Below are positions 18,510 to 64,000 of a DNA stretch of 64,000 nucleotides, in pieces. The stretch comes from Desulfobacteraceae bacterium. Its GTDB lineage: Bacteria; Desulfobacterota; Desulfobacteria; Desulfobacterales; UBA5616. Made by a program: the position numbers and the translations under genes. The stretch covers positions 1 to 64,000 of the forward strand of contig VMSV01000238.1 in the NCBI GenBank assembly GCA_013791935.1. The letters run 5' to 3'. A model generated the notes under the pieces. That model searched no databases, had not been told where the DNA came from, and saw nothing but the letters and a program-made list of their open reading frames with translations. How positions within the stretch are numbered: position 1 is the first letter of the stretch; every line of letters begins with the position of its first letter.

Positions 18510-18584
18510 GCGGGAATAACTCAGTGGTAGAGTGCGACCTTGCCAAGGTCGAAGTCGCGGGTTCAAATCCCGTTTCCCGCTCCA
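18510..18584 (+). tRNA. tRNA-Gly(GCC), CCA encoded
   Basis: Acceptor GCGGGAA/TTCCCGC, anticodon arm CGACC-TTGCCAA-GGTCG, T-arm GCGGGTTCAAATCCCGT, TCCA tail. Confidence 0.97.
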
Positions 18585-18598
18585 ACTTATCAATATAA

Positions 18599-18633
18599 AA
18601 TCGGGGATTTACGTTCATCCCCGATTCGTTTTT
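18599..18633. terminator. Intrinsic terminator downstream of tRNA-Gly, overlapping integrase 3' end
   Basis: AATCGGGGAT-TTACGTTC-ATCCCCGATT then CGTTTTT; opposite strand also has a TTTT run. Confidence 0.7.
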
Positions 18634-19886
18634 GGTGGCACCACCGTGGCACCACCCTTGAGTGGCACCACCTTCCCTTTTTTCTCAGCGGTAGCCTTCA
18701 CAATATCAAAGGAAAAATCATCCACCTGGCAATATCGGTCAAAGGCTTTGTTCGTTTCATGGCCGGATGATTCCTTAGCTTTTTCGCGGCCAAATTCCAC
18801 CGCTCTCCATGTTGTGGTACTGTGCCGGGTCCCGCCATAAAGATCCACACCTTCAATCCCGAGATTCGTGCAAGCCTGCTTCCAGTATTTCCAAAAAAAG
18901 TGGACCCCGAAAGCCTGGTCAGCTTTTACACCCCTGGTCTTTGTGGTGTGCCGGAAAAAAGGCATATCGGGATGGCCGGGGAATTCGGCTTTCATGTTTG
19001 AGATTTCGTCAATGTGGTAATCGAGCAAGCGGATACGGATTACCTTGTTTTTGTCTTTCTTCTTGGTAGGGCGCCAAAAGGTGATAATCCCGTTTTTGTG
19101 GTCAACATCTTTTTCTTTGATTTTTAGAAGATCACCCGGGCGGATGTTGGTATGCAGACTCAGGATATCAATACCAAGCCATATTTTAGGATTGTCCACA
19201 TAAGATATCGCGCGGACCTCTTCAATAATTTTAGCCTGGGTATCCATATCAACCATATTTCGATAGGCAAGCTGGTATGGGATATCCGGAATTTTCGGAG
19301 CCTGGGACAGCGTGATTATTTCAAGATCATCCACCAGGAAGTTGAAAAAGAAATCATGAAGGGCACTGGCGTGATTGTGGCGGGTCTTTTCGGAGATTCC
19401 TTTTATCATATAAAGGAACTCTTTAATATCGGCCTTCTTGATCGATTTGACGTTTCTATCCTTAAAGAATTCTAGTGCCCGGACCATGTAATTTCGGATG
19501 TTACCGATGGATTTCATGCCGGTGCGTTCTTTTTCTTCAAGGAATTGTTCAGCGAGGCCCGCGAATCCGAGTGGATTATCGGCTTGATAATCCCTCATGT
19601 CAAAAGATCCTTTGTCAGTTTCAAATCTGAGGCCCATCAGAAACCGGCTTGCGGCCTGATAATGTTGAAACTGCCTTCTGACATTGCGCCCGAATTTAAC
19701 TATGAAACGACGGGACGCTGCAATGGTTCGATGTTCCGGACAAAAAAGACCCTGCCTGCGTTCGTCATGCTCAAATGCAGAGCCACAAACAGGGCATTTA
19801 TCTTTTGAATAAATTGACCCAAGCATACAATCCCCCCATGTTTGGTTTATGGGGGCCATATTATATTTATGGGGGGATGGTGTCAA
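18615..19886 (-). CDS. int: Tyrosine-type phage integrase with N-terminal Cys-rich segment
   Basis: HTNIRPGDLL (Arg), GGTRHSTTT (HxxR), SSGHETNKAFDRYCQ (Tyr); N-terminal CPVCGSAFEHDERRQGLFCPEH. Confidence 0.9.
   Translation of the reverse strand: MTPSPHKYNMAPINQTWGDCMLGSIYSKDKCPVCGSAFEHDERRQGLFCPEHRTIAASRRFIVKFGRNVRRQFQHYQAASRFLMGLRFETDKGSFDMRDYQADNPLGFAGLAEQFLEEKERTGMKSIGNIRNYMVRALEFFKDRNVKSIKKADIKEFLYMIKGISEKTRHNHASALHDFFFNFLVDDLEIITLSQAPKIPDIPYQLAYRNMVDMDTQAKIIEEVRAISYVDNPKIWLGIDILSLHTNIRPGDLLKIKEKDVDHKNGIITFWRPTKKKDKNKVIRIRLLDYHIDEISNMKAEFPGHPDMPFFRHTTKTRGVKADQAFGVHFFWKYWKQACTNLGIEGVDLYGGTRHSTTTWRAVEFGREKAKESSGHETNKAFDRYCQVDDFSFDIVKATAEKKGKVVPLKGGATVVPPKTNRG
18635..18672. repeat. Three direct repeats GTGGCACCACC, candidate integrase arm sites
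   Basis: Exact 11-mers at 18635-18645, 18646-18656, 18662-18672, 50-90 bp from tRNA end. Confidence 0.7.
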
Positions 19887-24927: not shown

Positions 24928-26142
24928 ATGTCGAATTTGCCAGCAATACGAAATGACTCTATTAATCAAGCTCTTTCGAGCATTAAAGAGCTATCGCCGG
25001 AGGCCTATGGTGTCTTAGCGGCAGTTGTGAGCCAAAATGTTGTTGTTCTTGGAGAGGATGAAGCATTTACCTTGCGGGATAAAGACGGTGAGATCCGGGC
25101 TTTCAGGAAAAAATTAACCTTGTCCGCAAAAAATGGCGGTTTGATTAAGCCGACCCATGATGGACCTCATGTGATATCGGCGCAGGGATATGAGATATGG
25201 GCTGAATCCTCCGGGACCTGTGTTATTTTCCCTAAAGAGGTTTTGGTGGGCAGCGCATTTCTACCCAATCCCTACGCCGAGCGTGATCCTCAAAACCGGC
25301 GTATCCTTGCCGTTCATGCCAGAGCTGTTGCTTTCCGGTTTTCTTCTGTCGGTATCCCGCAGGTAAGCGACTGGACGACAATTTTTGATACCCCTTCCTA
25401 CAGACTGATTGATTTACTGGCCAAGGCCAAAAAGTTTCCCCAGGCCTTTCAGCTTCTTCCCCAAGGGATGACACCCAAAGAAGATGGAACATGGGCAAGT
25501 TACCCTTTTGATGAAAGCACAAGCCTTTTTGTGAATACTCAGCACGAAGAAGCCCTTCAATGGTTTGCCCAGATCCTGAATCGTGAAAAAAAAGCCATGG
25601 ACTTTGCTCAGACTTTCGCCAAAAGAAACGCCCTGAAACATTTATCCGGCCTTCAGAAGGTCCCTGGCGGGGGTGCTGAGTGGACTATTAGCGTTCTTTG
25701 CTGGCGTCCGACTTCCGGTAACATCATTAAATGGGATGGGACCGAATACGCCAATCTTCAGAAGCGTATCGGAAACATGATTGATGGGGATGGAAAAGAG
25801 TTTGATCAGATCGAATATCACCACGGCAAAGAGGCTGTGAGCGACGAACCAGGGTTCGAAGTTCATGAGGCTGAAACAGACCCGGAAGATCAAACACCCA
25901 TTGATACCAAAAATGAACCTCCTGAAGCCGAGCCTGTTCTTGAAAAACAAAATGACCTGCCTGTTTTGTCCGAAGAAGACACCAAACTTATGATGCAGTT
26001 TTCACAACTGGAAAAGGACTTCCCGGATGAAACCGCCCAGGCCCTAAAAGAAATGAACATCCCTGGAAAACCAAAGCCCAATCAAATGAAGCTGGTCTTT
26101 AAAAAGGTCAATCAAATTGTTGACCAGGCAGGGGGTGAATAA
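24928..26142 (+). CDS. Phage recombination-module protein, possible ssDNA-annealing protein
   Basis: 404 aa; FAQTFAKRNALKHLSGL and context directly upstream of SMC/Rad50-like ORFs; family not certain. Confidence 0.5.
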   Translation: MSNLPAIRNDSINQALSSIKELSPEAYGVLAAVVSQNVVVLGEDEAFTLRDKDGEIRAFRKKLTLSAKNGGLIKPTHDGPHVISAQGYEIWAESSGTCVIFPKEVLVGSAFLPNPYAERDPQNRRILAVHARAVAFRFSSVGIPQVSDWTTIFDTPSYRLIDLLAKAKKFPQAFQLLPQGMTPKEDGTWASYPFDESTSLFVNTQHEEALQWFAQILNREKKAMDFAQTFAKRNALKHLSGLQKVPGGGAEWTISVLCWRPTSGNIIKWDGTEYANLQKRIGNMIDGDGKEFDQIEYHHGKEAVSDEPGFEVHEAETDPEDQTPIDTKNEPPEAEPVLEKQNDLPVLSEEDTKLMMQFSQLEKDFPDETAQALKEMNIPGKPKPNQMKLVFKKVNQIVDQAGGE

Positions 26143-27071
26143 TGCCGATCACCAGCATCATGGTCAAAAACTTCAAGGGGGCCACATTTGAACAACCCCT
26201 TGGGAAATTAAACCTTTTCATCGGTCCGAATGGTGCCGGGAAATCCGCCCGGTCCGGCGCGATCCTTTTAACCCGGCTTGGCTTTGTTCCTGGATCATCA
26301 AAGGCGAACCCTGAAATATATTCCGCATACGCAGGCAATGCCAAAGATCAAATGTCTGTGGGTTTTACGGCAAACGGTCTTTCCTTTGAGCGGATTTTTA
26401 TAAAGAAAAGAGGCGGTGCTGTCAGTCAGAAATTCACCATCGGAGGAAGCCACAACCAGACCAAAGAGGACTTTGCATCATATCTGAAGACCAAGGCCCC
26501 ATCAATTTTTGACCTTGAAAATTTCTTTTCTCTTTCTGACCAGAAAAAAATTGATCTGATTTTTGCCATGTTCCCGCCTTCGGGAGACCCGGTAAAGCTC
26601 ACGAACGAGATTGAAGATAAATCCGAAGAGGTAAAGAGAAAACAGAAGACCAGTACTGAGCTTGAAGGGATTGTCTCCCGCCTGACGAAAAGCAGAACCG
26701 AATTAAAGCTACCGGCCGGGAACCTTGCCAGTGTCAAAGAAGAGATTTCCAAAATTGAGGAAGCCTTGGCCAATGCCAGGGCCGAGCTTACCAAAGTTGT
26801 AAAAGATCGGATTGAGTCCGAGGCAAAATTAAAAGCTGAAGCCGCAATACAACCCGCTATTGATTCCCTGGAAGCCACCCGCCAGCAAGCGGAATCCTCC
26901 TTGAAAGCCAAAACCGACCGAGCCGGTCTTATTCCCATGGCATCAACCGCCATTTCAAGCATTACTCGCATATTGGAAACCCTGAAAGGAGCTGGTTGCG
27001 ATACTTGCGCGGCGGTAATGACTGCAAAGGCTGAATTTAAAAAGCATAAATCCCAGGAAATGAGGTTTTAA
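26142..27071 (+). CDS. Rad50/SMC-like ATPase, N-terminal half (Walker A, coiled coil, CxxC)
   Basis: LNLFIGPNGAGKSA Walker A; FFSLSDQKKIDLIF; coiled coil; GAGCDTCAAVM CxxC near C-terminus. Confidence 0.8.
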   Translation: MPITSIMVKNFKGATFEQPLGKLNLFIGPNGAGKSARSGAILLTRLGFVPGSSKANPEIYSAYAGNAKDQMSVGFTANGLSFERIFIKKRGGAVSQKFTIGGSHNQTKEDFASYLKTKAPSIFDLENFFSLSDQKKIDLIFAMFPPSGDPVKLTNEIEDKSEEVKRKQKTSTELEGIVSRLTKSRTELKLPAGNLASVKEEISKIEEALANARAELTKVVKDRIESEAKLKAEAAIQPAIDSLEATRQQAESSLKAKTDRAGLIPMASTAISSITRILETLKGAGCDTCAAVMTAKAEFKKHKSQEMRF

Positions 27072-27072
27072 A

Positions 27073-27642
27073 ATGGAACAGATGCTTACACAGCAAATCG
27101 AAGGACTCAGGGCCAAAAAAAAGGAACTTGAAGGCGTTGAAAAGCTTTTTATCAAAGCCCAGGGGATTGATGAAGAGATAGAAAAAAGCCGGTCCGAAAT
27201 TTCGGATCTTGGCCCGGAAATTCAAGCCATTAAAGAAACCATATCCGAATTGAAAGCCAAAAAACGGGAGTCCCTTTCAAAGACCATGGAGTCCTTGGCC
27301 GGTAAAATGAGCGAGGTCATGCCTGTGGGCAAAGCCCTGTTTGATATTGACGAAGATGGAAAGGTTTTCATTGGAATACAGACCGAGGCTGGGGCCGTCC
27401 CTTACGCCGGGTTATCCGGGGGGCAGAAGGCGGCGTTTGATTCTGCCTTATCCTATGCCCTTCTTGGTGCCGGTGAAAAATTGATCATCATCGAGGCCGC
27501 TGAAATGGATTACACCCGGCTGATTGATACCCTGAAATCCATTGAGGAAAACGTGGATGATCAAACTCAGTATATCGTCAATACTTGGACCCGGCCCCGC
27601 CCCGGAGCTGTGTCTGAGAAATGGGTGGTGGTGACCCTATGA
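27073..27642 (+). CDS. Rad50/SMC-like ATPase, C-terminal half (coiled coil, signature, Walker B-like)
   Basis: Coiled coil then AGLSGGQKAAFDSALSYALLGAGEKLIIIEAAEMD; GAGG 7 nt before ATG. Confidence 0.8.
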   Translation: MEQMLTQQIEGLRAKKKELEGVEKLFIKAQGIDEEIEKSRSEISDLGPEIQAIKETISELKAKKRESLSKTMESLAGKMSEVMPVGKALFDIDEDGKVFIGIQTEAGAVPYAGLSGGQKAAFDSALSYALLGAGEKLIIIEAAEMDYTRLIDTLKSIEENVDDQTQYIVNTWTRPRPGAVSEKWVVVTL

Positions 27643-27824
27643 AAATGCCATACGGAAAATTCAAGGGGCAAGATATTGATAAACTTCCTTCAGGATATTT
27701 GAAATGGGTTGCAGAGAATTTTGACGAAAGTAGAGGCCAGGGCAAGGCCATTTGCAAGGAAGCAGATGAGGAATATCAATTTCGAGAAAAAACAGGAACC
27801 CATTTTTATGAGGAAATGCCATGA
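27639..27824 (+). CDS. Small DUF3820-like protein
   Basis: MPYGKFKGQDIDKLPSGYLKWVAENF. Confidence 0.65.
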   Translation: MKMPYGKFKGQDIDKLPSGYLKWVAENFDESRGQGKAICKEADEEYQFREKTGTHFYEEMP

Positions 27825-29557
27825 ACCTTGAAAATCTTGATTTACAACAGCGCATAGCGGTTACCACCGACTCCAAAAAGGTCATGGTTATTGCCGGGGC
27901 AGGGAGTGGTAAAACGAGGGTCCTGACTTCCAGGGTCGAATATCTGATCCATGAAAAGAAGGTGAGCCCATTTGAAATCATGTGCTTTACCTTCACCCGG
28001 GCAGGCGCAAACGAAATGAAAACCCGGCTTGAGAAGTCCATCGGGAGCGATGTTTACAAACTCCACATCGGAACCATGCACAGCCTCGCTTTAAACTATA
28101 TCCGGCGCTTTGGTGAAGTCCTGGGGATTCGGCCGGCGACCGTGACCGTGTATAACGAATGGGAAAGTCAATTTCTCTTGAAAGAGGTTGCCAAGGATTT
28201 GGGCGTCTACAACGGCAAAGCGTGGAAAATCCCCAAAAAAGAAATCGATGAGATATTCAACGATTATTATGCTGCGGGTATTGAGCCATGGGAGTCCCAC
28301 AAGGCTTTCATTCTTTTTAAAGCCTTCCTTCAGCGGTGCCGGGAGAATAACGCCCTGACTTATGGAGGATTGATCCTTGGTTTTCGGATGCTGATTCCTG
28401 AGCTTAAAAAACGCCTGCATGTTCGGCATATCCTCATCGATGAGGTTCAAGATATCGACATGCTTCAGCATGACATTATTTCTCTGTTATCAGGGGCCTT
28501 TGATGCTTCGGTTTTCATGGTGGGTGATTTAAGCCAGTCCATTTTTGCATGGCGGGGGGCTGTCCCGGAATTCATGCTGGACCTGCAGACTCATTTTGAC
28601 GTTCACAAACTCGAAACGAATTATCGATCTGTCTCCGGGATCGTTGAAGCCGCAAACCGCGTGATCCGGCATAATGAGATCCGGATACCCTTGGATATGA
28701 GGCCTACAAGAATCGGTGTCGGGGTTCAGGAACTTTATGACACTGATTCAGAAGCGGTCATAAAATTTATTCAAACTCTTATCCCCTATGCTGCAATCCA
28801 GCCAAAAGATATTACAATCCTTGCCCGGAATCACGTTTTATTAAAGCGCATTTCGTCCCTGATGGACGAACAGGAGATAAGGCACCAGTATGTAGGCCGG
28901 AAGTCTGACCTTGCCCATTCTGAGGGTTTAAGGCGGTTCATTGCCTTCTTTAAACTGCTTTTGAACAAACAGGATAATTTCAGCTTTCTTTTGATTAAAG
29001 ATATCCTCGGTCTGGATAGGCAGCAATATGGCCAGATCAGAAAAAACGCTGTTGAAAGTGGCGTCAGTCATTTTGAAGCCTGGTTTAATTCTGATACCGG
29101 AGACTTTAAAAATTTGTTTTCGGCGGAGTATTCAGATTTCGACGAAATTATTGACGCGGTTGATTCCGCAACCTCATCCCCTGAAAATCAAGAAATCACC
29201 TCGTTTATCAGAGCCTCCGAAACCAGCGACTTAAAATCTTTCCTGGACTGGATAACCACATACGACATCAGCGACGAAGCAGCAGAAACCTTTGAAGGTA
29301 TCCGCCTTATGACCATCCATGCGGCCAAGGGCCTTGAGTGGCCCGTGGTTATTCTTGCCGGGTGCAATGAAGGGCTTTTACCCTCCAAAAAGGCTGTTGG
29401 AAGCGGCCAAATTGAAGAAGAAAGAAGGCTTTTCTATGTGGCCATGACCAGGGCCAGAGACAACCTTGTTTTGACGATCCGGCCAGAAAAAAAGGAAGCT
29501 GATTCCGGCAAGATTTATGAAAGCCCGGTGTCGAGATTTATCCATGAATTATCTTGA
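27821..29557 (+). CDS. UvrD/Rep-family SF1 helicase
   Basis: VIAGAGSGKTRVLTSRV, TFTRAGANEMKTRL, ILIDEVQDID, GDLSQSIFAWRGA, TIHAAKGLEWPVV, VAMTRARDNLVL. Confidence 0.95.
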   Translation: MNLENLDLQQRIAVTTDSKKVMVIAGAGSGKTRVLTSRVEYLIHEKKVSPFEIMCFTFTRAGANEMKTRLEKSIGSDVYKLHIGTMHSLALNYIRRFGEVLGIRPATVTVYNEWESQFLLKEVAKDLGVYNGKAWKIPKKEIDEIFNDYYAAGIEPWESHKAFILFKAFLQRCRENNALTYGGLILGFRMLIPELKKRLHVRHILIDEVQDIDMLQHDIISLLSGAFDASVFMVGDLSQSIFAWRGAVPEFMLDLQTHFDVHKLETNYRSVSGIVEAANRVIRHNEIRIPLDMRPTRIGVGVQELYDTDSEAVIKFIQTLIPYAAIQPKDITILARNHVLLKRISSLMDEQEIRHQYVGRKSDLAHSEGLRRFIAFFKLLLNKQDNFSFLLIKDILGLDRQQYGQIRKNAVESGVSHFEAWFNSDTGDFKNLFSAEYSDFDEIIDAVDSATSSPENQEITSFIRASETSDLKSFLDWITTYDISDEAAETFEGIRLMTIHAAKGLEWPVVILAGCNEGLLPSKKAVGSGQIEEERRLFYVAMTRARDNLVLTIRPEKKEADSGKIYESPVSRFIHELS

Positions 29558-55156: not shown

Positions 55157-58100
55157 ATGGGTCTTTTAGATTTCCAAAGTACTTACACCCCGAAGAAAAA
55201 AACCTTTTATGATGAAGATGAAACAAAGGTTGCGCCCGACATAAAAAAAGCTTTCCAGGAAGGTAAAAAGGTTTTGAAGTCCCAGGTTGAACGGGTCGGA
55301 GATCCGCTTATGCCTATTTCTCAAGACCAGATTGTTGAAATGGGCAAGGCCAGCATCCAGGACCAAAGGGGATATGACTTTCTTGGAGGCGCAAAAGTTC
55401 TTGCAGCCGGGTTGCCACGGGTCCCGGTTCACATGGTAGGCAAAGCAATTGAAACGGTCCAGGGCCAGGCCGGGGCCGATGTGGTGAATCCGGATTTCTT
55501 TGAGCGGATATCCCAAGGGGTCCGGAAGTGGGAATCTGATAAGCAGGCTGAGATAGGGGAAAAGTACAAGGACCGGAAGTTTCTGCCGGGAATTAAAGTT
55601 TCTGATGTTGGTTCTTTGCCGGAAAACCTTGCCTATTCCGTGAACTCAGCCGGGGCCGGTATCGGTGCGGGTATGGCTTCTTCAGCGGCCACCGGTGGAA
55701 ACCCGGTCGCTGGTTATACGGCTGGTATGGCCGCAGCCGGTGAGGTTGCCTATCGTGGTACGACTTATGATTTCATGAGAGAGGTCTTGACCGAGTTTGA
55801 TAATAACCTAAAGACTGAAAGAGGAAGCGGCCTTACTGAGGAAGAACAGACGGTTGTTAAAAATCAGTTTGAAAAAGAAGCCACGGAAACGGGCCTTTGG
55901 GAAGCTTTGCCGGAAGCCATCGGCGGCGGGATAGGGTTTAAAATACTGACCTCTCCACTCAAGGGTATCATGACCAAGATCCTGGGGGAAAAACTCGGGG
56001 AGAAGGCAACCACCAATATCCTTGCCAAAATAGCCGGTAGTCAGATTGAAGAGCTTTCCACGGAAACCATTACGCAGATGGGTCAAACCGATGTCCGGGG
56101 GAGGGCAGGGCTCGAAGGCGGGAAGAAGGTTGACTGGACAAAAGCCGGGGATTGGATTGAAGCTTTAAAAGAAGTCGCTCCCCAAACTGTTCTATTATCC
56201 GCCGTCATGGGCGGAGCAATTGCCGGAGGAAACCGGGTCCACGATAACCGGAAAATCAGGGCCTTGGATAAGTCCATCAAAGACGATGAATACAAGAAGA
56301 TCCCCAATGATGAATTCGGGAATGAGGTTTTAGCCAGGACCCTTGATTATGCCACTGAGCTCCAAAAGACCAGGCCCAAAGAACAGCGGGTTCAAAATGC
56401 CGTCCAAAAACTTACCGATGAGATTGCTTTCCGGAAACAGAGCCCGGATGCAGCCATTGCACCTGAAGAACCGAAAGCGGTTTTTGTTGCAGAGGTTGGC
56501 CGGAAGCTGGCCACGGATGAAATTTCCATAAGTGACATTCAGGAATTAAAGAAAGATCCCAATGTCCAAGGCCTTGGGGTCGATGATGATTTAAACAAGA
56601 TCATCATTTCCAAGAAGGGAGAGGCCCTGGCACCGAAGCCAGAGGAAGAACCTGCCCAGGCTGTTGAAACCCAAGCCCAAGCCGTGGAGCCGGAACAATC
56701 CGCCCTACCTGTGACCCCTGAAGAGGTTCAGGCTCAGGAACCGGAAGCCAATGGCATGCTCCAGATGGAGAGTGAAGACATTGGAGGCCTGGTTCAATGG
56801 GCTGATAGGTTTAATTCCGGACTGGATCAAAAAAGCCAGCGTCAGCTATCCAGTGTGATCGATGGCGCGAAGAAGGGCAACCCGGAAGACATCGAAACCC
56901 TTTGGAAGAATTTTGAGTTTACAACCAACTCTGAAACCGGGGTTTCTCCGCCTGTACCCGAAGATATTAAATCGCTTACGATTTCCACAAATGGAACCAA
57001 CATAGAAAGCTCCGGGGATGAAACCTTTGTTCGGTCTCCCTCAAAGGCTGAGAATGTTGGAGGGAAAGCAAGGCAAACCGGTTTCAACAAGATCCCGGAT
57101 GCCCCTGAAGGATTTGAGAAGGTTTACAAGCCGTATGGGGCTCAAGGGGCTGGTTATTATTATGCGAGAATAGCGGAATCCTCCGTTAACGATATTTCCA
57201 CAAATACCCCTGAAATCGTGAACGCAGAAAGTGTCGGTCAAGGGGAAGTCCCAACTGACAAGGAAACCTTAACAGTTGAAAAACCTCAAGACGAACTTGT
57301 TCAAAAAATTGATTCAGCTATTTCTCTTCCAACCGGACTATCAGGAGCAAAGCCACGTTATTCCTATGGCAATAAGCAATTTGACTTAACTTTCAAAAAC
57401 GATATTGACAAGGCGGCATATATCGCCGCTCAAGAAAAACCATCCAAAAAAGATGCCGAATACCTGAAATTTGTCGCAGAGAAAACCGGATTATCAGAAG
57501 ATGAGATCCGCGACCATGGGCGATCTGTGAAGCAGACAATCAAGGATATTGCGGCGAAGTCGAATGACATCGAGATTATTGTGCCTGGGCACCCAATCGT
57601 TAAAAAGACCGAGGCTGCCCCCTCAACTCCCAAATTAACCACGAAAGAACTAACACCCGTTGATAAAAGCGAAAAAGAACCTCATGGCAAGCGTGAAAAG
57701 GCCATGGCTGAATATAATGCTTTTATTGCCAGCATCCCGCAACACCTGAAAGATAAAGTAGGGGATGTCATAAAAGAAAACCCGATTTCTCCTTCTTCTC
57801 AAAAATTGAGGGTTGCCAGGGCTTTGGCCAAGGCCACAACGGGAGCACAGGCCGAAACCTCAGTTTCAGCAGCCGAAGCACCGGCAGTGCCAAAACCGGT
57901 TGAAAAAAAGGCCGAGACCTCGGAGCCGGTAACCCGAGAAAGCTTCCAGAAAAGCCTTGAAAGAAAAGGGACCGCCATCGGCCCGAACGGTCAAACCTAC
58001 TCTATTCAGGAGCAGGGAGAGGGAAATTATTATGTCCGTACCGTAAAAGACGGTATCAGGTTTGAAAATGGTGGAGGGTATCCGGCCAAGTGGAGCATGG

Positions 58101-61100
58101 AATATGCTAGGCAGAAAGCCGTTGATGAGGCCTTTGGTATAGAATATGAATTCACTTCTCTTGAAACAGGTAAAAAAACCACGGAGACCATTCCGGATAT
58201 ACCGAGTGGAAAGGCTCCTATTGAGAAGGCCGTGGAACCAGCAGTAGAACCGGAGCCCACAGCAGCAGCAGAACCAAAAGCCAAGCCTACCTATGGTGAA
58301 GGAAACAAAGTCTTTACCAAAGAAGCAGCAGACGCAGCCAGGGAACTTTTAAGGAAGAAATTGAGCCGGGTGAGCACCGGGCTTGATCCTGAACTCGTTC
58401 AGGCAGGCATTCAGCTTGCCGGTTACCACATCGAGGCCGGGGCCAGATCCTTTGTGAATTATGCAAAGGCAATGCTTGAAGACCTGGGGGCAGCAGCAAA
58501 ACCTTATCTTCGATCATGGTATGAGGCGGTTAGGTATTATCCTGGATTTGAGAACAAGGACATGACGGAGGCCGCCGATATAGAAAAAGTTGACATTGAC
58601 GATATAACAGACTATAATAATAAGGAAACAGCAGTTAACAAAGGAGGGCAAGATGAACAGATACGCCCAATTAACGAAAGACTTCCTGAAAGAGAAGGCT
58701 CCCAAGAAGGTCAAGGAGATGTCCAGCGACCAATTGAATCAGCTTTGCCAAGCCAAGGCAGAACAGGCGATAAAACAGAAAGAAAGCCTGATAAACGCCG
58801 GGTGGATGGATCACGAAGCCGAGGAAATGGTGAGAGCGGACCTTCTGACTATTCCATAACCAATGCTGATAGCCTTGGTAAAGGTGGACCGAAGCAGAAG
58901 TTCAAAGACAACCTTGCCGCGATACGTCTATTAAAGCAGATCGGAGACCATGGGGATTCACTTGGTTATGATCAGGCCAGACCTGAAGAGCAATCAATCC
59001 TTGTAAAATATGTTGGGTGGGGAGGTCTTCAGCAGGCCTTCAGAAGACCCGATGGCTCCATAGCCAAAGGATGGGAATCTGAGGTTGCAGAACTTGAGGA
59101 TCTTCTTTCCGAAAAAGAATATGCCGCCGCAATCAAATCCACACGAAACGCCCATTACACCAATCAACCTATTATCAAAGCTGTTTATTCTGCCCTTGGG
59201 AGACTCGGGTTCACCCATGGGAAGATTCTTGAGCCTGCCGTAGGGACTGGAAATTTTATAGGGTTAATGCCCAAAAAAACAAGGTCCAAGTCAAGGATAA
59301 CCGGCATTGAGCTCGAACCATTGACCGCTTCAATCTCTAAACAGCTTTACCCGAATCAAAATATCGTCCAGTCCGGATTCCAAAACGTCACCCTCGCACC
59401 GAATTCCTATGATCTTGCAATAGGCAACCCGCCTTTCGGGGATGAGAAGCTTTTCGACCCGGAAAACAAGGATCTCAAAAACTTCTCCATTCATAATTAT
59501 TTCTTTGCCAAATCCCTCAAAGCCATTCGCCCGAATGGTCTCCTTGCCATGGTTGTTTCTTCATCCATGATGGATAAGATCAGCGATTCCCAAAGGTCCT
59601 GGATCAATGACCGGGCTGAATTCCTTGGAGCCATAAGGCTTCCCAATAATGCTTTCAGAGGGAGCGCCGGAACTGACGTTACCACCGATATCGTTTTTTT
59701 GAGAAAACTTGAGGAAGGCGAAACCTCCAAGGGCGAAGCATGGTTGAATTTAAAACGGGTTAAAGGCAATGGGAATGATTGGCGGATAAATGAGTACTTC
59801 GCCAATCATCCGGACATGATGCTTGGAGCATTGGCTCCGAATAAATTGTTTCCTGCCGAGATCGTTGATGGGGTTTACGATGCCGTTCCTGGAATGACGG
59901 CCATTGAGGGAATCGATTTTGAAAAAGCTCTGGCTGAAGCAGTCCAAAGGCTCCCGGAAAAAGTATATAAAGCAGGAAAAACCTTTGAAGAGGTTCAAAA
60001 GGCTAAAATCCTTGTTTCTGATCCTGGATTTGCCATGCCGTTTGGATACACGCTCGACAATAAAGGGCAGGCTACACGGCGGTTACCCGATGTGAATGGG
60101 GAACGGCAATATGAGATGGTCGAGTATGCAGGTGCGCCCATTTCCGGGACTCGCCTTGAACGTTTTAAAGGGTTGCTCGGGTTAAGAGACGATGTCCGTA
60201 GGCTTATCAGGGCTGAAATAGCCGATGATTCTTCCATGGATTCTTTGAGGGCCAAATTAAACAAGGATTATGATGCCTTCATAAAGGAGTTCGGATTCAT
60301 TTCCCAAACCGTCAACGCCAGCGTATTGCAGGATGATCCTTCCGATCTTCCCCTGCTTCGGTCTCTTGAATCGAATTTTGATAAAGGTATTTCAAGGGCG
60401 GTAGCAAGAAGCACGGGCCAAGCGCATAGAGAGCCATCAGCCAAAAAATCAGCCATATTTACAGTAAGAACCAGGGAGCCCTATCGGGAAGTGACAAAGG
60501 CGGATAATGCAAAAGATGGCCTCTTTATCGTTCTCCGGGAAAATGGGTTTGTTGATATCGACCGTATTGCTTCTTTGACCGGGAAAACGGTTGAAGAGGT
60601 TTCTCGGGAGCTGGAAGGAGACATTTTTCAAAATCCGGAAACAGAATCGTGGGAAACGGCTGAATATTATCTTGCCGGGAATGTAAAACAAAAGCTGAAA
60701 GATGCCCAGGCCGCAGCACAAAAAGAACCGTCTTTCCAGGTGAATGTTAAAGAGCTGGAGAAAGTCCAGCCTGAAGATGTCCCACCGGATTTGATTACGT
60801 TTAAAATTGGTGCTTCATGGATGCCGAGCGAAGTGTATGAGGCCTTTTCCAGAGATGTTTTAAAAAGTGATATTCAGGTTCGGCACATTGAAAGCACTGG
60901 AACATGGTCAATAGGGGTTAATTCTTCGTCTCCCACAGAACACGGAACGCCGCAGATATCAGGCATAGAGCTTTATTCAAGGTTGCTTCAGGGCAAAGAA
61001 ATAGCCATCTATGAAAGAGACAAGGACGGGAACCGGTTCTTAAACCGTGACTATACCCAGGCAGCTAAGGATAAGGCTTCGGATCTCCACCAGGCGTTTC

Positions 61101-64000
61101 TGGATTGGGCTTTGTCGAACCAGAGATACAGGGATGTGATCGCCAAAGAATTTAACGACAAAGTCAACACGACAATTGAAACCAAGGCCAACGGTAGCCA
61201 CATGATTTTTCCCGGCATGGGGATCATAAATACAGGGGCAAAAAGAGATGAACAGTTAAGGCCACACCAGAAAAACGCAATATGGAGATTCATCCAGAAA
61301 GGCAAGGGCATTGCAGATCATGTTGTGGGATCAGGTAAGACCTTCATATCGATAGCGACAGGGCTTGAAATGAAGCGCATGGGCCTTGTTAAAAAGCCTA
61401 TGTACGCTGTTCCCAATCATTTGGTGGGGCAATGGGCTTCAGACTTCCAAAAGCTTTATCCCGGGTCAAATGTGCTTGCCGTTACAAAAAAAGATTTTAC
61501 GAAAAAGCGTAGGCAGGAATTTCTTGCCAGGATTGCAACCGGAGATTGGGACGCTGTTTTGATTGCTCATTCTTCTTTCGGCTTTATCAAGATGCCATAT
61601 GAGCATGAATATAAATTTTATCAGGAACAAATCAAACAATACAAGGAGGCTATTGTTGAAATCCGTGCTGCTGAAGGTGCAAAAAGCTTGACCGTAAAAC
61701 AAATGCAGGATGCTCAGGGCAAGCTTGAAGAAAAGCTGAAGAAGCTTTCAGAAAAAGAGAAAGAAAATGTGGTCGATTTTTCAGAATTGGGAGTAGATGC
61801 CCTTTTCGTCGATGAGGCCCATGAATTCAAGAACCTGTTCTATGTGACCAAAAAGACGAGAATCGCAGGTTTGGGGAACCCTGAAGGCTCTAAGAAGGCC
61901 TTTGATATGTTTGTGAAAACTCAATACCTGTTAGATGCGAACAATGACAAAGGAGTCTTCTTTTTAACCGGAACCCCCGTGTCAAATTCAATCTCAGAAA
62001 TGTACACCATGATGCGATACCTGGATTACTCGAAAATGAAGAAGATGGGTATCACGCATTTTGACCAATGGGCCAGCATGTTTGCTGATGATATCACCGA
62101 TTGGGAGGTGGACCCGACCGGAACCAGATACAGGCTTCAAACCAAGCTTGATTTTATGAATGTCCCTGGAATGATGGCTTTCTACAATGACTTTGCGGAT
62201 ACCGTTTCAACCAACGATTTGAAACAAATTTCCAAAGACAATGGCGCGATCTGGCCGATTCCGGAGATTGAAGGCGGTAAACCTGAACTTGCGGTTGCTG
62301 AGAGTTCAGATTTGCAAAAATCTTTTGCCGATTATGTGGTTCATCGATTTGACAACATGCCTAAAGATCCCAAGATCGATAACCCCCTGAAAGCCACAGG
62401 TGAAGCCATGAAGGCCGCTTTGGATATTCGGCTTATAAATCCTTCATTGCCTGATCATCCTGGTTCTAAGGTCAATAAGTGCGTAGAGAATGTTTTCAAG
62501 ACGTATCAGGATTGGGCAAAGAAAAAAGGTACTCAGTTGGTTTTCTGTGATCTTTCGGTGCCGAAAAAAGGCCGGGGAAAACACGCCGCCGAAATCATGG
62601 CGGTTAAAGATGAAATGCGAGAGCTTGAAAAAAGAATGGCCGATGAGACGGACGCAGAAGCTTCCGCAGAACTGGAAGAACGCTATTCAAGCCTGGCTGA
62701 TCAATTTGAAAAATATTCGCCTGCTGAATTGATGGCAGCGGATTCCGAATTTTCAGTTTATGACGATATCAAGGCCAAGCTGATCAAAAAAGGTATTCCT
62801 TCAGATGAAATCGCCTTTATTCATGATGCCAATACCGATATCCAGAAAGAAACCCTGTTCGGAAGCGTGAGGTCCGGCAGTATAAGGGTCCTTATCGGAT
62901 CGACCTCCAAGATGGGCGCGGGTATGAATGTACAAAACAAGTTGGTTGCCCTGCACCATTTGGATGCCCCATGGAGACCTTCAGACCTTGAGCAGAGGGA
63001 GGGCCGAATTGTAAGGCAGGGGAATGAATTTTTCAATGATAGCATGAAAACAGGGGAGCCTTTTAAGGTTAAGGTTTTAAGGTATTCAACCAAGGAATCC
63101 CTTGATACCCGGCGCTGGCAAATCATTGAGAGAAAGGCTTCGACAATTCAACAGCTCCGAAGTGGTGAAACGAAGTGGGGTGAAAAAATAGAGGACGTTT
63201 TAGGGGAGGCTGCAAACGCGGCGGAGATGAAAGCGGCCTCTTCCGGGAACCCTCTTATCCTTGAAGAAATTCAGACCAGAAAAGCTATCGAGAAGCTGGA
63301 AATCAAAAAGCGCAATGACCGCGGAATTCGTTTCAAATATGAAAGAGATATCAGCGCAGCCAACAATATGGAAGGCAGGCTTGAAGACATACTCAAGGAC
63401 ATTGAACGGGATGCCGAGCTTGTGGCAGCCAATCCGAAAGACAAGACCCCTCAAGGATGGGCGGTTCAGATTGATGGTCAGGTCTATAAGGCCAAAGTCG
63501 TTGATGTCCCGACAAATGACAAGCAAGCCGCCAAGGAAGCTGAGGAAAAGAACGCAGAGGCGTTAAAAACTGCCAAGGGAAAATTCGCTAAGGATCTTGG
63601 CAAAGCTTTAAAAAGGTTCGATCAACCGGGTGCCGTTGAAAGCTTTGATGTGGAATACCGTGGCTTAATCTGGAATGTGGACCGAACTGTTTGGGGTGAC
63701 ATAAAATTTATTCCGGACCTGAACGGTTTAGGGCTCCATAATAGAACCCCCAATATCCATTATAACCTGAAAGACGTAGTTTCTCCTGAAGGGCTGCTTG
63801 TCAGGATGGATAATGCCCTGGACGCGATTGTTGAAGGCAAAGATAGGTCTCTTGGAATTCATAAGCGTGAAGCCGATTTTGCTTTTAAGAAAAGAGCAAT
63901 TGCCCAGGCTGAGCTGGCAAAGAAGTCAAATAATTTCGACCAACAGATTGCTGAATTAAAACTTCGTCATTCTCAGATCATTGCAGAGCTGCAAGCCGAT
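55157..64000 (+). CDS. Giant DarB-like protein: N6-adenine DNA methyltransferase plus SNF2-family helicase; runs off window (>=2,948 codons); missing from ORF track
   Basis: Manual translation in frame 2: MGLLDFQSTYTPKKKTFYDEDETK...; MTase motif I ILEPAVGTGNF (~59225) and catalytic NPPF (59426-59437); helicase Walker A VVGSGKT (~61320), VDEAHEFKN (~61808), LTGTPVSNS, STSKMGAGMNVQ, QREGRIVRQGN (~62990). Confidence 0.9.
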   Translation, partial: MGLLDFQSTYTPKKKTFYDEDETKVAPDIKKAFQEGKKVLKSQVERVGDPLMPISQDQIVEMGKASIQDQRGYDFLGGAKVLAAGLPRVPVHMVGKAIETVQGQAGADVVNPDFFERISQGVRKWESDKQAEIGEKYKDRKFLPGIKVSDVGSLPENLAYSVNSAGAGIGAGMASSAATGGNPVAGYTAGMAAAGEVAYRGTTYDFMREVLTEFDNNLKTERGSGLTEEEQTVVKNQFEKEATETGLWEALPEAIGGGIGFKILTSPLKGIMTKILGEKLGEKATTNILAKIAGSQIEELSTETITQMGQTDVRGRAGLEGGKKVDWTKAGDWIEALKEVAPQTVLLSAVMGGAIAGGNRVHDNRKIRALDKSIKDDEYKKIPNDEFGNEVLARTLDYATELQKTRPKEQRVQNAVQKLTDEIAFRKQSPDAAIAPEEPKAVFVAEVGRKLATDEISISDIQELKKDPNVQGLGVDDDLNKIIISKKGEALAPKPEEEPAQAVETQAQAVEPEQSALPVTPEEVQAQEPEANGMLQMESEDIGGLVQWADRFNSGLDQKSQRQLSSVIDGAKKGNPEDIETLWKNFEFTTNSETGVSPPVPEDIKSLTISTNGTNIESSGDETFVRSPSKAENVGGKARQTGFNKIPDAPEGFEKVYKPYGAQGAGYYYARIAESSVNDISTNTPEIVNAESVGQGEVPTDKETLTVEKPQDELVQKIDSAISLPTGLSGAKPRYSYGNKQFDLTFKNDIDKAAYIAAQEKPSKKDAEYLKFVAEKTGLSEDEIRDHGRSVKQTIKDIAAKSNDIEIIVPGHPIVKKTEAAPSTPKLTTKELTPVDKSEKEPHGKREKAMAEYNAFIASIPQHLKDKVGDVIKENPISPSSQKLRVARALAKATTGAQAETSVSAAEAPAVPKPVEKKAETSEPVTRESFQKSLERKGTAIGPNGQTYSIQEQGEGNYYVRTVKDGIRFENGGGYPAKWSMEYARQKAVDEAFGIEYEFTSLETGKKTTETIPDIPSGKAPIEKAVEPAVEPEPTAAAEPKAKPTYGEGNKVFTKEAADAARELLRKKLSRVSTGLDPELVQAGIQLAGYHIEAGARSFVNYAKAMLEDLGAAAKPYLRSWYEAVRYYPGFENKDMTEAADIEKVDIDDITDYNNKETAVNKGGQDEQIRPINERLPEREGSQEGQGDVQRPIESALPSQGRTGDKTERKPDKRRVDGSRSRGNGESGPSDYSITNADSLGKGGPKQKFKDNLAAIRLLKQIGDHGDSLGYDQARPEEQSILVKYVGWGGLQQAFRRPDGSIAKGWESEVAELEDLLSEKEYAAAIKSTRNAHYTNQPIIKAVYSALGRLGFTHGKILEPAVGTGNFIGLMPKKTRSKSRITGIELEPLTASISKQLYPNQNIVQSGFQNVTLAPNSYDLAIGNPPFGDEKLFDPENKDLKNFSIHNYFFAKSLKAIRPNGLLAMVVSSSMMDKISDSQRSWINDRAEFLGAIRLPNNAFRGSAGTDVTTDIVFLRKLEEGETSKGEAWLNLKRVKGNGNDWRINEYFANHPDMMLGALAPNKLFPAEIVDGVYDAVPGMTAIEGIDFEKALAEAVQRLPEKVYKAGKTFEEVQKAKILVSDPGFAMPFGYTLDNKGQATRRLPDVNGERQYEMVEYAGAPISGTRLERFKGLLGLRDDVRRLIRAEIADDSSMDSLRAKLNKDYDAFIKEFGFISQTVNASVLQDDPSDLPLLRSLESNFDKGISRAVARSTGQAHREPSAKKSAIFTVRTREPYREVTKADNAKDGLFIVLRENGFVDIDRIASLTGKTVEEVSRELEGDIFQNPETESWETAEYYLAGNVKQKLKDAQAAAQKEPSFQVNVKELEKVQPEDVPPDLITFKIGASWMPSEVYEAFSRDVLKSDIQVRHIESTGTWSIGVNSSSPTEHGTPQISGIELYSRLLQGKEIAIYERDKDGNRFLNRDYTQAAKDKASDLHQAFLDWALSNQRYRDVIAKEFNDKVNTTIETKANGSHMIFPGMGIINTGAKRDEQLRPHQKNAIWRFIQKGKGIADHVVGSGKTFISIATGLEMKRMGLVKKPMYAVPNHLVGQWASDFQKLYPGSNVLAVTKKDFTKKRRQEFLARIATGDWDAVLIAHSSFGFIKMPYEHEYKFYQEQIKQYKEAIVEIRAAEGAKSLTVKQMQDAQGKLEEKLKKLSEKEKENVVDFSELGVDALFVDEAHEFKNLFYVTKKTRIAGLGNPEGSKKAFDMFVKTQYLLDANNDKGVFFLTGTPVSNSISEMYTMMRYLDYSKMKKMGITHFDQWASMFADDITDWEVDPTGTRYRLQTKLDFMNVPGMMAFYNDFADTVSTNDLKQISKDNGAIWPIPEIEGGKPELAVAESSDLQKSFADYVVHRFDNMPKDPKIDNPLKATGEAMKAALDIRLINPSLPDHPGSKVNKCVENVFKTYQDWAKKKGTQLVFCDLSVPKKGRGKHAAEIMAVKDEMRELEKRMADETDAEASAELEERYSSLADQFEKYSPAELMAADSEFSVYDDIKAKLIKKGIPSDEIAFIHDANTDIQKETLFGSVRSGSIRVLIGSTSKMGAGMNVQNKLVALHHLDAPWRPSDLEQREGRIVRQGNEFFNDSMKTGEPFKVKVLRYSTKESLDTRRWQIIERKASTIQQLRSGETKWGEKIEDVLGEAANAAEMKAASSGNPLILEEIQTRKAIEKLEIKKRNDRGIRFKYERDISAANNMEGRLEDILKDIERDAELVAANPKDKTPQGWAVQIDGQVYKAKVVDVPTNDKQAAKEAEEKNAEALKTAKGKFAKDLGKALKRFDQPGAVESFDVEYRGLIWNVDRTVWGDIKFIPDLNGLGLHNRTPNIHYNLKDVVSPEGLLVRMDNALDAIVEGKDRSLGIHKREADFAFKKRAIAQAELAKKSNNFDQQIAELKLRHSQIIAELQAD

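Follow-up and report, generated by a model that had tools for sequence, protein, structure and literature searches.

The question raised by this locus is whether two adjacent prophage genes, A and B, each carrying part of a Rad50-like ATPase, are separately translated halves of one enzyme, or a single gene that is either rejoined by frameshifting or simply broken. The preliminary description, made from the 64,000-nucleotide stretch of DNA analysed here (the window), had proposed that two subunits rebuild one Rad50-like head and arm, with a programmed frameshift and a disruption as alternatives. The comparative data favour the two-subunit proposal, and from them we infer that the chains physically assemble.

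The features described for A (Walker A motif, ascending coil, terminal GAGCDTC) and for the junction (B starting just past the stop of A, in the +1 frame, behind a GAGG) are all present in the sequence (Table 1). The same holds for the descending coil and the LSGGQ signature of B; its Walker B region is also present but atypical, Glu standing in place of Asp and Ala in place of the catalytic Glu.

Table 1. Positions of the genes, motifs and junction elements of the A–B locus (window coordinates).
Feature	Position (strand)	Remarks and evidence
Gene U, 404 aa	24928..26142 (+)	Stop shares 1 nt with the ATG of gene A
Gene A, 309 aa: N-terminal lobe of Rad50/SMC type followed by the ascending coil, a tether and the CxxC hairpin	26142..27071 (+)	AAA_23 E 5.5e-8; PDB profile matches; 30-row alignment
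Walker A GPNGAGKS of gene A, aa 28-35	26223..26246 (+)	G28, G33 and K34 invariant, 30/30
CDTC, zinc-hook-like Cys pair (Cys 286/289) in GAGCDTC, 20 codons before the stop of gene A	26997..27008 (+)	
GAGG, putative ribosome-binding site of gene B, 7 nt 5' of the ATG	27062..27065 (+)	Sequence
A/B junction: TAA of gene A (27069-27071), 1 nt, ATG of gene B (27073)	27069..27075 (+)	
Gene B, 189 aa: C-terminal lobe with the descending coil (about aa 1-83), the signature and a Walker B-like strand	27073..27642 (+)	+1 frame relative to A
ABC signature LSGGQK, aa 114-119 of gene B	27412..27429 (+)	L114 and G116 30/30
Walker B-like strand LIIIEAAEMD of gene B	27481..27510 (+)	30-row alignment; register from SMC Walker B/D-loop
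Small gene, 67 aa, PF12843-type	27621..27824 (+)	PF12843 E 3e-7; not among the recurrent neighbour families
UvrD/Rep-type helicase, 578 aa, fourth gene of the cassette	27821..29557 (+)	PF00580 3.6e-53; phrog_1967 DNA helicase 2e-99

The window spans the boundary between the host chromosome, assigned through relatives to the Thermodesulfobacteriota and recognized up to about 18 kb by MurJ, NfeD, class-III aminotransferase, argininosuccinate lyase and transaldolase genes, and a prophage marked by terminase and portal genes. At this boundary lies a tRNA-Gly(GCC) gene (window 18510-18584) that may have served as attachment site. The neighbouring ORF of 423 aa on the minus strand (18615-19886) is without a Pfam match, and no integrase was recognized. 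The phage early region that contains A and B also encodes a resolvase-like protein, an HNH protein and the helicase. At the right end, an ORF of more than 2,948 aa (window 55157-64000) continues past the window and accounts for the seeming scarcity of other long ORFs there; read by eye, it looks like a polyvalent phage protein in which some stretches are methyltransferase-like and others SNF2-helicase-like.

The split across diverged phage loci

Alignments of U, A and B were scanned over IMG/VR and GTDB genomes, and the genes found were then assigned with HMMs. Viral contigs scanned at first with single sequences or with alignments of two rows gave no matches, and deeper alignments were required; weaker genome matches that were inspected were ordinary ABC/AAA ATPases. 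This search yielded 42 distinct, diverged loci in which both genes were readable, located in Thermodesulfobacteriota prophages and IMG/VR phages. Had the window copy been an exception caused by a 1-nt indel, its relatives would have been uniformly fused; instead, A and B were separate genes in 42/42 loci, and A preceded B in every readable locus.

The junction itself was highly variable: in the first 30 loci, the offset between A and B ranged from an overlap of 14 nt to a gap of 1153 nt, and all three relative frames were represented (15, 11 and 4 loci). In the first relative found (G011), whose gene pair is 33% and 28% identical to that of the window, B follows A after a gap of 9 nt, without change of frame and with an AAGGAGG; in two genomes of the Desulfovibrio type (G596 and G425), the genes overlap by 8 nt (ATGGATAA or ATGGATAG). 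Wide gaps were found at L060 (+187 nt), L128 (+192), L124 (+495) and L065 (+1153); L124 accommodates a 178-aa gene between A and B, and L065 a 235-aa PAPS-reductase-like gene plus a 73-aa ORF (L065:8985-10137). The 187-nt spacer of L060 (L060:10288-10474) contains short GC-rich near-repeats of the GGCATGGC/GGCGAGGC type. The start of gene B was nearly fixed, 112-119 aa ahead of the signature in 30/30 loci, and an SD-like motif preceded it in 29/30.

These observations bear on the two explanations in which A and B are not independent genes. A programmed ribosomal frameshift (or stop read-through) joining them into one Rad50-like protein could exploit the T-run at the stop of A in the window (AGG TTT TAA A) and the frame of B, which is open over the 5 nt preceding that stop. 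The occurrence of all three relative frames, the gaps or inserted genes at the L060, L128, L124 and L065 junctions, the absence of a slippery site common to the loci and the ribosome-binding motif proper to B argue against it, L065 and L124 contradicting it for the family, and we consider it very improbable. A recent frameshift mutation or an assembly error within a fused gene, the simple disruption envisaged initially, would generate just what is seen in the window, a B gene in the +1 frame after a 1-nt gap. Yet the split recurs in 42/42 diverged, independently assembled relatives, and both the start of B and the tail of A behind the CxxC motif are conserved, which leaves this explanation exceedingly improbable. 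Because all frames occur, the offsets vary and genes are inserted in L065 and L124, we excluded both a frameshift shared by the family and a local error, and we hold with high confidence, on sequence comparison, that the conserved split is real.

Fused relatives do exist. Seven loci (L068-L072, L144 and L154) carry a single phrog_32642-like gene of about 556-750 aa whose N-terminal lobe belongs to the same family as A and which, in most of them, follows a U-like gene. In a maximum-likelihood tree of the N-lobe, which is unrooted, one branch (support 97/97) parted the 7 fused from the 41 split rows, and a single change of state sufficed in 99% of the bootstrap trees. Since Rad50 and SMC proteins are generally single chains, we prefer fission to fusion as the direction of this change, a single fission, apparently occurring once, being the simpler reading. 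The fused proteins are not alike: L068 and L144 have the Glu-Ala-Ala-Glu Walker B of the split clade, L068 being devoid of the Cys pair, while L069-L072 and L154 have an Asp in Walker B and a mid-chain Cys pair with wider spacing. The 750-aa protein of L144 (L144:3201-5450) combines an EAAELD Walker B with long arms and no obvious apex Cys pair, and could represent an ancestral or a side state.

Homology, motifs and the Cys-pair hairpin

Gene A matched AAA_23 in Pfam (Table 1); gene B alone matched no Pfam family above the cut-off. Compared with PDB sequences, the A profile matched SMC1A (7.1e-6) and Rad50 N-terminal chains such as 1f2t_A, and the B profile matched SMC3 best (6zz6_B, 4.8e-10), then bacterial Smc and the Rad50 C-terminal chains 3qkr_B, 1ii8_B and 1f2t_B, which were deposited as separate polypeptides. 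The Rad50 catalytic-domain crystals 1f2t, 1ii8 and 3qkr thus consist of an N-lobe chain and a C-lobe chain, the same division as between A and B. That division was made in the laboratory; the A–B split, by contrast, is natural and retains the coil and the hook.

The fold was modelled with AlphaFold on L039, whose A and B genes share a frame, as the natural read-through of both genes across the stops and with a 40-row alignment. The model (mean pLDDT 87.5, mostly above 90 in the lobes, pTM 0.66) has a single 84-residue helix at the beginning of B and a low-confidence stretch before the terminal Cys-pair hairpin. Foldseek aligned it end to end with Smc (5xei, E 1.6e-15, probability 1.00) and with Rad50 heads; the TM-scores were low (0.35/0.37 for the best match), and these, like the pTM, probably reflect, at least partly, differences in the coils and the disordered part of the chain. 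Although the read-through joins A to B artificially, the predicted structure supports a composite head.

Thirty diverged copies of A and of B were aligned for motif counts. Beside the invariant residues of Table 1, each position of LSGG was conserved in at least 28 of the 30 copies, and the Cys pair of A was a CxxC in 28/30, a CxxxC in L012 and lost in L038. That these three motifs are conserved across 30 diverged copies, and that the A and B profiles match the N- and C-lobes of SMC/Rad50 proteins in the PDB, argues that none is a chance occurrence. The A gene of L038 (L038:1493-2521), the only one of the first 30 split copies devoid of the Cys pair (KVDAMAVVLQCKKE), constitutes a natural hook-less member of the family.

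The break between the two genes had been placed at the apex of the Rad50 hairpin. The CxxC does lie in a predicted helical hairpin, but it is probably not at the apex of a rigid arm: between hairpin and arm runs a variable segment, proline-rich in part and predicted with low confidence. The CxxC occurs 96-148 aa past a conserved Pro-Gly kink and is followed by a tail of 13-31 aa. Since the distance from kink to Cys is variable while the start of B is nearly fixed, the hook of A is probably tethered, and probably flexible, as judged from the alignment and the model.

The C-terminal lobe deviates from the canonical one at the ATPase site. HMMER aligned the relevant strand of B to the Walker B and D-loop of SMC proteins by introducing a two-residue deletion. 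In this register, the Walker B Asp is a Glu in 30/30 copies (E141), the residue after it, at the usual place of the catalytic Glu, is Ala in 19, Gly in 8, Ser in 2 and Val in 1 (never Glu), and a Glu three residues after E141 (E144) is invariant (30/30). A His-loop-like TCH motif has its His in 27/30 copies and lacks it in the window. Given the absence of the Walker B Asp and the catalytic Glu, these sequences suggest that ATP hydrolysis may be slow or may depend on another residue.

Taken together, A and B resemble Rad50/SbcC in having ABC lobes at both ends of an antiparallel coiled coil, a Walker A motif and an ABC signature, and a CxxC in a helical hairpin, here a predicted one. Rad50/SbcC, however, is one polypeptide spanning both lobes, whereas here the two motifs are distributed over two polypeptides, encoded by two genes in all 42 loci; moreover, the arm is short, the hook is at the end of A on its probably flexible tether, and Walker B has Glu-(Ala/Gly/Ser/Val) in place of Asp-Glu. 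SMC proteins (Smc, cohesin SMC1/SMC3), to which the strongest profile and fold matches were obtained (6zz6_B and 5xei), possess a hinge domain, and their arms run to several hundred residues; the A–B family has no hinge but a CxxC, two genes, about 500 aa in total and a coil of about 80 residues. A hinge-less SMC group reported recently is devoid of CxxC and consists of one chain (PMC12153180). No naturally split Rad50, SbcC or SMC was found in our literature search, which covered open-licence papers and little of the subscription journals; a stable natural two-gene split of a Rad50/SMC-like protein appears to be previously undescribed.

The cassette and the proposed working of the two halves

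The neighbourhood was surveyed at 36 loci, 31 of the split clade and 5 fused. A homologue of U was directly 5' of A in 35/36 and a UvrD-type helicase homologue lay 3' in 35/36, the order U-A-B-UvrD helicase being conserved. No nuclease family recurred among the neighbours at these 36 loci. Mre11/SbcD is the usual operon partner of Rad50/SbcC; unlike Rad50/SbcC, A–B has no recurrent Mre11/SbcD gene nearby, although a partner encoded elsewhere is possible (the only SbcD-like gene of the host scores below threshold and lies on a different contig). On the basis of this gene neighbourhood, we have moderate confidence that the cassette serves recombination or repair.

Gene U belongs to a deeply conserved phage family found upstream of both split and fused Rad50-like ATPases (window, L037-L072). 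The window protein is 35-62% identical to its split-clade relatives and matches phrog_32428, annotated as of unknown function. It gave no Pfam, NCBIfam or significant PDB sequence match, hhalign probabilities against single ul36 Erf-like and lambda Bet sequences were below 1%, and Foldseek returned nothing significant for its model (pLDDT 78.8), the matches including RAD52 (8rjw_F, probability 0.35) and several Erf proteins in BFVD. Our guess is that U is possibly a DNA-binding or annealing protein.

The named hosts are Desulfovibrionaceae, and the remaining loci are mostly metagenomic. Solidesulfovibrio alcoholivorans DSM 5433 is one lysogen with the cassette (L073). When 50,697 annotated phage records were searched by tblastn, no match was obtained to A, B or U of the window, to U of L050 or to two fused relatives; nor did U of L050 match any of 72,556 plasmids. 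The A gene of G011, used as a query against the phage records, gave weak generic matches only, the best being an exonuclease-subunit gene.

We conclude that A and B are, most probably, separately translated genes for the two halves of one Rad50/SMC-like ATPase, in what would be a phage recombination or repair cassette; that the halves form one ATPase unit is supported with good confidence by the sequence and the model. According to the mechanism that we propose, A and B would be translated side by side from coupled cistrons and the chains would pair via their roughly 80-residue coils into one ABC half-site, A supplying the N-lobe, Walker A, the ascending coil and the tethered CxxC hairpin, and B the descending coil, the signature, the Walker B-like strand and the His-loop region. 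Two such units would close on ATP at their heads, and the Cys pairs in their A tails could be joined through Zn2+. The assembly would act with protein U and the UvrD-type helicase, with no recognizable Mre11 partner encoded nearby.

Two other explanations accept that the genes are separate. A or B might also act alone or with another partner, and not as one composite head, for instance A as homodimers formed through its hook and B as a regulator, as could be suggested by the 96-148 aa by which A extends past the coil kink, with a hook of its own, and by the fact that inserted genes can separate the pair. This is quite unlikely, however: neither protein has a complete ATP site, the two are co-present in the same order in every readable locus, and fused relatives exist. 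The cassette might otherwise serve defence or anti-defence, its ATPase sensing DNA ends as those of Lamassu or PARIS do; PADLOC reported weak similarities to AriA, LmuB and Mad3, and Lamassu LmuACB chains are also among the Foldseek matches of the L039 model. These matches look like generic ABC-lobe similarity, no effector gene is conserved beside A–B, and the resolvase-like, HNH and helicase neighbours in the window are phage early genes, so that we regard such a role as unlikely.

If A and B are indeed halves of one ATPase, the split may itself be functional. As they are not joined at the tip of the arm, where A would hook to A and the start of B is free, they could form an ATPase ring or clamp whose distal end opens while every chain stays intact. 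The resulting picture, of a Rad50/SMC-like DNA clamp that is naturally split and independent of Mre11, works with U and the UvrD-type helicase and perhaps hydrolyses ATP via a relocated glutamate, is tentative and, as a whole, rather doubtful.

Such a system is easily missed, because annotation pipelines see two unrelated fragments. It offers a Rad50-like ATPase that has neither a recognizable Mre11 gene beside it nor the customary catalytic Glu, and that is coupled to a helicase and to U, an uncharacterized protein. SMC and Rad50 proteins have largely been studied through the consequences of opening the ring or the hook; a chain that is cut near the hook, and has been kept cut over 42 diverged phage loci, amounts to a natural experiment that asks whether the arm must be covalently continuous.
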